This document shows positions 61,554 to 64,000 of a stretch of 64,000 nucleotides of DNA, one piece after another. A program made the translations under genes and the position numbers. This stretch comes from Sediminibacterium sp. GTDB taxonomy: Bacteria; Bacteroidota; Bacteroidia; Chitinophagales; Chitinophagaceae. Positions within the stretch are counted from its first letter, which is position 1, and every line of letters begins with the position of its first letter. Location: contig JAEUVE010000015.1 of assembly GCA_016786865.1 (NCBI GenBank), positions 1 to 64,000 on the forward strand. The letters are read 5' to 3'. The notes under the pieces are model-generated. The model was not told where the DNA came from, did no database searches, and was given only the letters and a program-made list of their open reading frames with translations.

Positions 61554-62498
61554 TTATTCCATCACTTTTTTCCATAGTTCCGGTATGCGCTTGATCCATA
61601 CCAGTTCTCTTCTTTTGAGAGAAGCATCCTCAGCAGGATAGCCAAAATAAGTTTTACCCCCGGCCAGAGAGGAAGGCACACCGCTTTGTGCCAGCACGAC
61701 CGCATTGGCCCCGATCGTAAGCGTTTTACTAACCCCAACCTGTCCCCAAAGCGTTACACCGTCTTCTATGATGGTTCCGCCGGCTATACCCACCTGAGCA
61801 GCGAATAAACAGTTTTTTCCAACAGTTACATCGTGGCCAATATGTACCATATTGTCCATCTTGGTTCCCATACCGATTCTGGTTTCTGCAGTTACCCCCC
61901 TGTCGATCATACAACCGGCACCAATTTCCACACCGTCTTCTATGACCACATTTCCGCAACTCAGCATTTTCTTATACCACTGTTCCCTGTTTTTCTTGGT
62001 GTTGTAATAAAATGCATCACCACCAATTACTGTTCCTGACTGAATCACTACATTATCACCAATCACAGTATAATCCAGTATGGTCACATTGGGATGTATG
62101 ATGGTGTTCCTGCCTATGCAAACCTTTTTACCAACAAATGTATTGGGCATTATCACAGAACCCTCACCAATAACCAGATCATCACTGATCGGTTTTTGAG
62201 CCGGAGTAAACGGACGGAAATGTTTTACAATGGTAAGGTATGCTTCAAAAGGATCGGCTACGACCAGGATGGTTTTACCTTCCGGAATATCCACCTCCCT
62301 GGTATTGATGATGATAAAATCTGCTGCGCTTTTTAAACAGGTATCATAGTATTTGGGATGATCCACAAATACAAGATCACCTCTTTCCACTTTGTGAATT
62401 TCATTGATACCAAGCACATCTGCTGTGGCATTGCCTGCAACTTCTGCATGGATCATATCGGCGATCCATTGAACCGAAACCGGAGCGGGAAACTTCAT
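61554..62498 (-). CDS. lpxD: LpxD-like UDP-3-O-acylglucosamine N-acyltransferase
   Basis: The start at 62498 (MKFPAPVSVQWIADMIHAEVAG) is chosen. The 47 residues before it in the open frame look non-coding. The 314-residue protein has an N-terminal LpxD-type domain and a left-handed beta-helix of hexapeptide repeats (VIGEGSVIMPNTFVGKKVCIG and others), with the catalytic His in NMVHIGHDVTVGKN. It would transfer a 3-hydroxyacyl group in lipid A synthesis. Slightly short for the family (about 340), it may be a second, paralogous LpxD, as many Bacteroidota carry two. Confidence 0.85.
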   Translation of the reverse strand: MKFPAPVSVQWIADMIHAEVAGNATADVLGINEIHKVERGDLVFVDHPKYYDTCLKSAADFIIINTREVDIPEGKTILVVADPFEAYLTIVKHFRPFTPAQKPISDDLVIGEGSVIMPNTFVGKKVCIGRNTIIHPNVTILDYTVIGDNVVIQSGTVIGGDAFYYNTKKNREQWYKKMLSCGNVVIEDGVEIGAGCMIDRGVTAETRIGMGTKMDNMVHIGHDVTVGKNCLFAAQVGIAGGTIIEDGVTLWGQVGVSKTLTIGANAVVLAQSGVPSSLAGGKTYFGYPAEDASLKRRELVWIKRIPELWKKVME

Positions 62499-62819
62499 TT
62501 GGTGTGTTTTTAGCGGCAGTAAAGGTAGTAAGCAAGGGTTTCCGGGAAATATTTTTTTGAGGGCTAACCTGGAAAAACAGATACTAAAACCTGTTTCTAG
62601 TTGCAAAAAAACAGCATGAAGTTTTTTTACTGTACGCATATCTGAAAAACATCGTTCGTCGCAAACCCTTTATTCATCATTATTTCAGAGGATTGAATTT
62701 TTTACGGTCGAATAAATGGTCATTAAAAACAGTCTTGCCGCAGTAAATAAAGCCTCGTGATTTTACTACAGAATCCACATCAGTAGCTAAAATGTTAATA
62801 AAATTGTTTAAAAAATTTT
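62499..62819. other. Gene-free stretch between lpxD-like gene and the lysS leader
   Basis: This AT-rich stretch separates the divergent lpxD-like and lysS genes. It has no credible ORF and no hairpin with a T-run. It must hold the leftward promoter for the lpxD-like gene. Confidence 0.5.
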
Positions 62820-62849
62820 TTGCATTCGTTAAAAGTCTTTTTAATATTG
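62820..62849 (+). promoter_or_regulatory. Promoter of the lysS leader
   Basis: TTG at 62820-62822 and TAATATTG at 62842-62849, spaced 19 bp, fit the Bacteroidota -33/-7 pattern with one -7 mismatch. Transcription would start near 62855. Confidence 0.5.
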
Positions 62850-62853
62850 TGTA

Positions 62854-62924
62854 GGGAAACTCGTTTCCCAGTACTTACTAACCCATCCATATACAAAGTC
62901 TCGCTTCTGCGGGACTTTTGTTTT
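62854..62924 (+). ncRNA. Two-hairpin leader RNA ending in a terminator, upstream of lysS
   Basis: Hairpin 1 (62854-62869) is GGGAAA pairing TTTCCC around a CTCG loop. Hairpin 2 (62895-62918) pairs AAAGTCTCGC with GCGGGACTTT (one G-T) around TTCT, followed by TTGTTTT. Hairpin 2 is a standard intrinsic terminator with no gene before it, only about 22 bp before the lysS ATG. It is either an attenuator of lysS or a short independent RNA. Confidence 0.5.
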
Positions 62925-62946
62925 AGTACTTTTCAAAGCAGTTATT

Positions 62947-64000
62947 ATGAGTCACGCACATTTTTCCGAACAGGAATTAATCAGAAGAGAGAAGCTTGCA
63001 AAGCTGCAGGCAGTTGGCATTGATCCATTCCCCGCACCACTTTATCCTGTAAATCATTTTTCAACAGATATCAAGAATGCCTACACAGAAGAAACCAAAG
63101 ATCAGTTCAGTGATCTCTGTGTTGCAGGCCGGATTATGAGCATCAACGATAAGGGGAAGGTATTCTTTATTAAGATACAAGACAGCAAGGGCATCATTCA
63201 ACTATATGTAAAAAGAGATGAAATATGTCCGGATGAAGACAAGTCCTATTTTGACAACCTGGTAAAACACGGACTGGACCTGGGAGATATTATCGGTTGT
63301 ACCGGTTATGCATTTGTAACCAAAACCGGGGAAACCTCCATCCATGCAAAAACCATTACCCTGTTAACCAAATCCCTCAAACCCCTTCCCGTGGTTAAAA
63401 GAGACGAGGAAGGAAATATTTTTGATGCCGTAACTGATCCTGAGTTTCGCTACAGACAGCGTTATGCCGACCTGATCATCAATCCGGAGGTAAAAGACAC
63501 GTTTCTAAAAAGAACCAGGATCATTAATACCATTCGGGAATTCCTGAACGAACAGGGTGCCCTGGAAGTGGATACGCCGGTGCTCCAGTCTATTCCCGGG
63601 GGTGCGGCAGCCCGTCCGTTCGTGACGCACCACAATGCACTGGATGTTCCTTTCTACTTAAGAATTGCCAATGAACTGTATCTGAAAAGACTGATTGTAG
63701 GTGGGTTCGACTGGGTGTACGAATTCAGCAGAAACTTCCGAAACGAAGGAATGGACCGTACACATAATCCGGAATTCACGGTACTGGAATGGTATACTGC
63801 CTATAAAGACTATCTCTGGATGATGGAGGTAACAGAGCAGCTCTTCGAAAAGATTGCCATTACCCTGCACGGAACCACAGAAGTTACCCTGGGTAATAAC
63901 GTGATTAATTTCAAGGCGCCTTTCAGAAGAATCAGTATCCATGATGCAATCAGGGAAAATACAGGTATTGATATCAGTGAAATGGACGAAGCCGGCCTGC
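62947..64000 (+). CDS. lysS: Lysyl-tRNA synthetase (class II), 3' end beyond window
   Basis: The frame from ATG 62947 (MSHAHFSEQELIRREKLA) stays open to the window edge (about 351 residues seen of roughly 500). The N-terminal OB-fold anticodon-binding domain (SDLCVAGRIMSINDKGKVFFIKIQD) is followed by class II motif 1 (FLNEQGALEVDTPVLQSIPGGAAARPF) and motif 2 (FSRNFRNEGMDRTHNPEFTVLEWY in parts). It charges tRNA-Lys with lysine. A two-hairpin leader precedes it. Confidence 0.97.
   Translation, partial: MSHAHFSEQELIRREKLAKLQAVGIDPFPAPLYPVNHFSTDIKNAYTEETKDQFSDLCVAGRIMSINDKGKVFFIKIQDSKGIIQLYVKRDEICPDEDKSYFDNLVKHGLDLGDIIGCTGYAFVTKTGETSIHAKTITLLTKSLKPLPVVKRDEEGNIFDAVTDPEFRYRQRYADLIINPEVKDTFLKRTRIINTIREFLNEQGALEVDTPVLQSIPGGAAARPFVTHHNALDVPFYLRIANELYLKRLIVGGFDWVYEFSRNFRNEGMDRTHNPEFTVLEWYTAYKDYLWMMEVTEQLFEKIAITLHGTTEVTLGNNVINFKAPFRRISIHDAIRENTGIDISEMDEAGL

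Follow-up and report, generated by a model that had tools for sequence, protein, structure and literature searches.

The question of a terminator ahead of lysS

An intrinsic terminator that follows no gene and ends just upstream of lysS, for lysine–tRNA ligase, raises the question of whether it serves that gene or closes a transcript of its own. Such an arrangement occurs at the end of the 64,000-nucleotide stretch of Sediminibacterium DNA analysed here, hereafter the window. The original prediction had offered both readings, i.e. control of lysS by premature termination in a leader, or synthesis of a small RNA at this site. Comparison with relatives supports the small-RNA reading and disfavours attenuation of lysS.

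A predicted small RNA gene between lpxD and lysS

The gap between lpxD and lysS measures 448 bp. The lpxD gene (61554–62498, minus strand; NCBIfam TIGR01853, from a scan that included 4 additional N-terminal residues; its start codon was verified) lies 5′ of the element and is divergent, so that, as originally noted, no gene directly precedes the terminator. The lysS gene (62947–63999, plus strand, continuing beyond the window) is a neighbour lying outside the predicted small RNA; it was assigned with NCBIfam lysine–tRNA ligase models at a score below cut-off, its frame being cut by the window end. The promoter-like pair, the GGGAAA/TTTCCC hairpin and the 10-bp terminator hairpin with its T run, all on the plus strand, are present as originally described. 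The promoter (62819–62849) consists of TTTG (62819–62822), 19 nt and TAATATTG (62842–62849), a pair that fits the Bacteroidota type of promoter. A sigma70 promoter was rejected, since a scan for such promoters gave none at this locus. The predicted transcript, sRNA1, would span about 70 nt (62854–62924), with its 5′ end placed from the promoter and its 3′ end from the terminator. It opens with hairpin 1 (62854–62869; GGGAAACTCGTTTCCC in the DNA), a GGGAAA/UUUCCC stem closed by a CUCG loop. The spacer that follows (62871–62894) holds the 23-nt core GTACTTACTAACCCATCCATATA (62871–62893), predicted to be single-stranded except for its last base and identified as the putative pairing region from the fold and from complementarity. 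The intrinsic terminator (62895–62924) has a 10-bp stem with a 4-nt loop (62895–62918) and a T run to 62924. The lysS ATG at 62947 lies 22 nt past the end of this run, in agreement with the distance first given. A 67-aa ORF starting from a TTG at 62820 overlaps lysS and was set aside.

The leader of about 70 nt folds better than shuffled sequence (z −4.45; 0 of 200 shuffles as good). Terminator-like hairpins as such number 4 in 4 kb against 4.1 expected, which alone is not significant; since they are no rarer than chance in this region, conservation is needed to decide.

Conservation and structure of sRNA1 in Chitinophagaceae

The 26 nt at 62871–62896 were found, with at most 3 mismatches, in 34 of 37 genomes of the window's genus and in none of 23 genomes from other families of the order, and the reversed pattern, used as a control, had no match in all 60 genomes. 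Two of the three genus genomes missing the 26-mer are assemblies 57 and 60% complete. Among GTDB contigs the 23-nt core is present at no fewer than 119 loci, 80 of them itemised; genera among the matches listed are Sediminibacterium, Niabella, Flavitalea, Agriterribacter, Hydrotalea, Ferruginibacter and Puia, together with many records named only Bacteroidetes or Chitinophagaceae and two MAGs titled Sphingomonadales. No exact match to a 22-letter core pattern was found in viral contigs.

A first MAFFT alignment of sRNA1 relatives gave no consensus structure because the hairpins were misplaced, and it was replaced by core-anchored counting on all 138 distinct sequences and on a subset of 46. 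A hairpin 1 stem of 5–8 bp ends 0–3 nt 5′ of the core in all 138 relatives, in 72 forms. The 3′ stem after the core occurs in 61 forms (4 of which, in 5 rows, are poor script calls) and is terminator-like in nearly all relatives, with at least 5 T in the 8 bases after the stem in 123 of the 138. The TAATATTG box, present in 136 of the 138, lies 19–22 nt 5′ of the core in 132 of these, and TTTG is found 18–22 nt 5′ of the box in only 88 of the 136. As all 138 relatives were found via the core pattern, the constancy of the core among them partly reflects selection; core variants are shown by a covariance model and by the divergent copies inspected. The 46 sequences, picked because their hairpin 1 could form at least 5 of its 6 pairs in a shared register, have 96% of the cells of this hairpin paired against 90% when shuffled, a figure that leans to structure through this choice; the two-sided changes at 4 of the 6 pairs in the same subset are the safer number.

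Run at E 0.001 against 298 genomes of the order, the covariance model matched 81: of the 85 family members, 78 had a match, and of the 213 genomes from other families, 3. The three outside matches (G157, G209 and G300) are weak and lack the promoter box, and were judged false, as was on inspection the match in one family genome (G396). Relaxing the threshold recovered box-bearing copies in g24 and g43, two of the three genera with misses. Five genomes of four genera (G277, G319, G350, G356 and G372) have lost hairpin 1 and kept promoter box, core and terminator; in the hairpin-1-less loci (L308, L309, L320, L321 and L322) the core comes to lie near the inferred 5′ end, and some further divergent genomes resemble these copies.

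In Rfam 15, no family reached its gathering score in the window, sub-threshold matches being far below cut-offs, nor in the sRNA2, recA-tail and brxB-tail loci described below or in two other sRNA1 loci. Nothing on sRNA1 was found in the literature searched, a scope outside which most subscription papers fall. We take sRNA1 and sRNA2 as undescribed putative RNA families, without an Rfam 15 counterpart at gathering score. The stretch 62854–62924 is predicted to be an independent small RNA gene of most genera of Chitinophagaceae: it has what appear to be its own promoter and intrinsic terminator, and it is conserved apart from its neighbour genes. This conservation supports the small RNA originally put forward as the alternative reading.

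sRNA1 is not tied to lysS

In the window's genus the element lies directly 5′ of lysS at 7 of 30 loci (at two of the 30, L013 and L030, the contig ends shortly before lysS). Among the 119 family-wide loci listed, lpxD is upstream and divergent in 108 and lysS directly downstream in 6, which argues that sRNA1 is not a lysS leader. A pseudouridine-synthase-like gene (TIGR00093, called from the first 110 residues with E 2.6e-26, below cut-off) is downstream in 62 of the 119, and 7 of them, with flanks partly cut, gave no neighbour match. Both hairpins are conserved in relatives, mostly away from lysS.

If sRNA1 were nevertheless a lysS leader, transcription from its promoter would stop before the gene unless a signal permitted read-through. 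The T run ends 22 nt 5′ of the ATG, there is no good second promoter box in 62856–62946 (from hairpin 1 to lysS just two boxes are seen, each one mismatch from TAnnTTTG), and the arrangement recurs at the 7 genus loci mentioned; all this suits a leader, which we still regard as very improbable given that the element is kept far beyond lysS adjacency and that its terminator arms change freely. The latter point, set against the constant core, also makes a conserved anti-terminator unlikely; a test for one exclusive with the hairpins had been proposed originally. Leaders of aminoacyl-tRNA synthetase genes such as the T-box are a known class, and sRNA1 shares with them a terminator ahead of a synthetase gene; it differs in having no Rfam T-box match and in not being tied to lysS. 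A T-box or amino-acid leader of lysS was rejected, with no Rfam match at gathering score and no fixed position before the gene; Rfam scans gave neither a T-box, in keeping with the original statement that no classical one is recognised, nor a lysine riboswitch. That the hairpin is a functionless product of chance would fit the frequency of terminator-like sites, as high here as in shuffled sequence, and is next to impossible to reconcile with covarying hairpins and a constant core across 138 distinct relatives. In the clade of the window, lysS may possibly receive read-through from the sRNA1 promoter.

Complements of the core in the genome of the window

A partner search with a 17-mer and 2 mismatches in 101 genomes of the genus (99 with some match) gave extra matches that recurred. 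Those inspected on the opposite strand include GATGGGTTAGTAAGTA-like sites just 5′ of terminator hairpins, located in the 3′UTR of brxB (bacilliredoxin, TIGR04191), in the 3′UTR of recA (TIGR02012) and upstream of radA (TIGR00416), in the last case preceded by a promoter-like box and followed by a hairpin. This radA-side element is here named sRNA2. The core segment GTACTTACTAACCCATC is complementary to the start of sRNA2 and to the sites just 5′ of the recA and brxB terminators.

The genome of the window has four exact copies of the 12-mer ATGGGTTAGTAA: in the brxB 3′UTR, in the recA 3′UTR, in sRNA2 and in sRNA1 antisense. By eye, none of its eight one-mismatch sites in this genome lies beside a terminator. 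For GGTTAGTAA, with 23 exact occurrences, the script flagged terminators only after brxB and sRNA2, having missed that of recA, whose stem has an internal mismatch; no terminator was seen by eye at the remaining sites in this genome. Several two-mismatch sites in other genomes were left uncounted, being inside genes. Cofolding gains of −17.0 kcal/mol for sRNA1 with sRNA2 and of −25.2 kcal/mol with the brxB tail are below all 300 shuffles; the gain of −13.0 kcal/mol with the recA tail compares with a shuffle mean of −4.1 and is exceeded by the best shuffle (−16.2). In fold prediction, the brxB site is largely paired inside its own tail.

Some further sites were seen. A complementary site before a terminator follows a long ORF read as a TonB-dependent receptor (L116:2360, G022), and another has no ORF shown upstream (L491:1209, G454). 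In genus g160 (L375 and L376, ∼1510), ATGGGTTAGTAAGTA precedes a terminator with no ORF end within 150 nt upstream, and is perhaps a further sRNA2-like RNA. In G137 and G138 (L483 and L484, ∼1200, minus strand), a near-match, flanked by apparent inverted repeat arms, separates an ORF resembling a membrane protein from a small ORF common to both genomes (AQDGNAGINEANTKVR...). At least 5 copies of AGGGGTTAGTAAGTT occur within 290 bp in G136 (C44:15551–15838), perhaps as a repeat array.

sRNA2, a second putative small RNA upstream of radA

At L097:2081–2140 (G000:C3:6080–6139), sRNA2 lies upstream of radA and consists of its own box, a 22-mer and a hairpin. Of 147 family genomes, 132 contain the 22-mer GAATTTAATGGGTTAGTAAGTA with at most 3 mismatches, some of these matches being other sites (e.g. 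sRNA1 antisense in G445). Among 42 distinct copies, selected for having the promoter box, 38 are identical over the 22 nt and 40 have a hairpin, in 36 stem forms; the box, TAnnTTAG, is 4–5 nt 5′ of the 22-mer. The distance to radA varies from roughly 50 to 390 nt, which, together with the box and hairpin of its own, argues for a separate short RNA. In 26 genomes taken from the core loci, the 30 loci among the matches listed comprise 15 radA-side elements, 14 copies of sRNA1 and one unprinted. All but one of the 15 radA-side elements precede an ORF with a RadA-like N-terminus (MSK..., FFC..CG or close); the element at L264 precedes an ORF taken as RadA.

The complement between sRNA1 and sRNA2 comprises 15 nt, with helix ends mismatched in some genera. 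Conservation of sRNA1 (CYATATA) extends beyond it, so that other partners are likely. The pairing region of sRNA2 also contains ATG GGT TAG, a possible two-codon minigene.

Conserved complements in the recA and brxB mRNA tails

The tails were surveyed in 60 family genomes, one per genus, at the best 30 loci for recA and the best 30 for brxB; choosing loci by score in this way favours nearer relatives. Among these best recA loci, the 16-mer site is found with at most 5 mismatches in 23 of 30 and with at most 3 in 18, the site being absent from the other 7 (7–8 mismatches). For brxB, 11 of the best 30 have at most 3 mismatches and 9 at most 2, and 19 lack the site (6–8 mismatches). With 1000 permuted 16-mers, matches to recA tails with at most 3 mismatches averaged 0.05 loci with a maximum of 3 (18 observed); with at most 5 mismatches the mean was 2.0 and the maximum 18 of 30 (23 observed), and no permuted 16-mer reached a brxB tail with at most 2 mismatches (9 observed). 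Three more recA tails (G136, G137 and G138, whose RecA was assigned by likeness to a scanned protein) have 0–1 mismatch to the 15-mer. On visual inspection, a terminator-like hairpin starts at most a few nt 3′ of the site in recA and brxB tails alike; at L433 the best-scoring copy of the site follows the hairpin and another copy precedes it. In its sense orientation the sRNA1 sequence has at least 5 mismatches to every stretch of these tails, and so strict an orientation is more in line with RNA pairing than with a site for DNA binding. sRNA1 offers a predicted exposed seed with conserved complements in separately encoded RNAs, as expected of a trans-encoded base-pairing sRNA.

Co-variation is scarce, as the near-constancy of both cores leaves few informative changes. 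The sRNA1 of genus g43 has the sequence CTAACACAT and is matched by the recA tail of G304, AATGTGTTAG; sRNA2 there (AATGAGTTAG) does not match the changed sRNA1, and the brxB tail is without a good site. The T of g43 is also present in brxB of G327, a genome with a canonical sRNA1.

A proposed circuit and its rivals

Gene anatomy, conservation, hairpin covariation and conserved strand-specific complementarity are evident in the sequences compared. The reading we prefer, and consider probable, is that of an independent sRNA1 pairing in trans with the recA and brxB tails and with sRNA2, lysS being a downstream neighbour. sRNA1 would be transcribed from its own promoter and ended at its own intrinsic terminator, and its exposed core would pair in trans with complements just 5′ of terminator hairpins, namely in the recA 3′UTR, in the brxB 3′UTR (in fewer genera) and in sRNA2 upstream of radA. 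From these patterns we infer transcription of sRNA1 and its partner RNAs and their pairing in the cell. Pairing at the foot of the terminator may expose the recA and brxB tails to RNases and lower their level, with sRNA2 as a decoy tying up sRNA1, a mode of action that is possible though somewhat doubtful. More tentatively still, it might be speculated that a hub sRNA acting on the recA and bacilliredoxin tails, with its level set by a radA-side sponge, forms a family-wide recombination and thiol-redox circuit.

The hierarchy might also be reversed, with sRNA2 and 3′ fragments of the recA and brxB mRNAs as active regulators and sRNA1 as their common sponge. The nearly invariant 22 nt of sRNA2 start 4–5 nt after the box, near its inferred 5′ end, which is a common place for the seed in sRNAs. 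The terminator-bearing tails, moreover, resemble 3′UTR-derived sRNAs such as SroC, as presented in a review (PMC9438474). Yet sRNA1 alone can pair with all the other RNAs, and no further sRNA2 target is known among the sites compared; this arrangement seems to us rather unlikely. It is improbable, in turn, that the shared 16-mer is the site of a DNA- or RNA-binding protein and no pairing region. Strong conservation with very little co-variation would agree with a protein site, as would the non-complementary changes in sRNA1 and sRNA2 of genus g43, but the orientation of the 16-mer in sRNA1 is opposite to that in the partners, none of the recA and brxB tails read has it in sense orientation, and it is predicted to be single-stranded in sRNA1 and located beside a terminator in the partners.

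Comparison with known systems and biological meaning

By analogy, sRNA1, as an independent trans-pairing RNA, would work like known sRNA-sponge and 3′UTR-pairing systems. SroC/GcvB (review PMC9438474) and QrrX/Qrr of Vibrio (PMC9732341) are described as sRNA–sponge pairs, and resemble sRNA1 and sRNA2 as two RNAs with complementary stretches, one of which may titrate the other. In these sources they are Hfq-linked gammaproteobacterial RNAs of tested function, whereas the predicted sRNA1 and sRNA2 are short intergenic RNAs of one family of Bacteroidota, and the hub has further complements in the recA and brxB tails. SkatA/PrrF1 of Pseudomonas, in the account of the same review (PMC9438474) a 3′UTR-derived sponge protecting its parental mRNA, likewise features an sRNA complement in an mRNA 3′ end; unlike there, one and the same complement of sRNA1 recurs at the terminator foot of the recA and brxB mRNAs, which are unrelated, and in the intergenic sRNA2. 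MasB of Bacteroides thetaiotaomicron is, as described in PMC10994844, also an intergenic small RNA of Bacteroidota, of about 70–100 nt, and acts on a 5′ region of its target, in which it would differ from sRNA1.

Two linked putative RNA families with short, explicit predicted duplexes are found in most genera of one bacterial family. To our knowledge, small RNAs of Bacteroidota outside Bacteroides have been little explored, and pairing at a terminator's foot has seldom been described for a target. The pattern of complementarity suggests that DNA repair and redox genes may be governed by a circuit based on RNA. If true, recA would be controlled beside or instead of the SOS repressor, by action at the foot of intrinsic terminators, and an sRNA complement conserved across genera in the tail of the recA mRNA would represent a new layer of recombination control.
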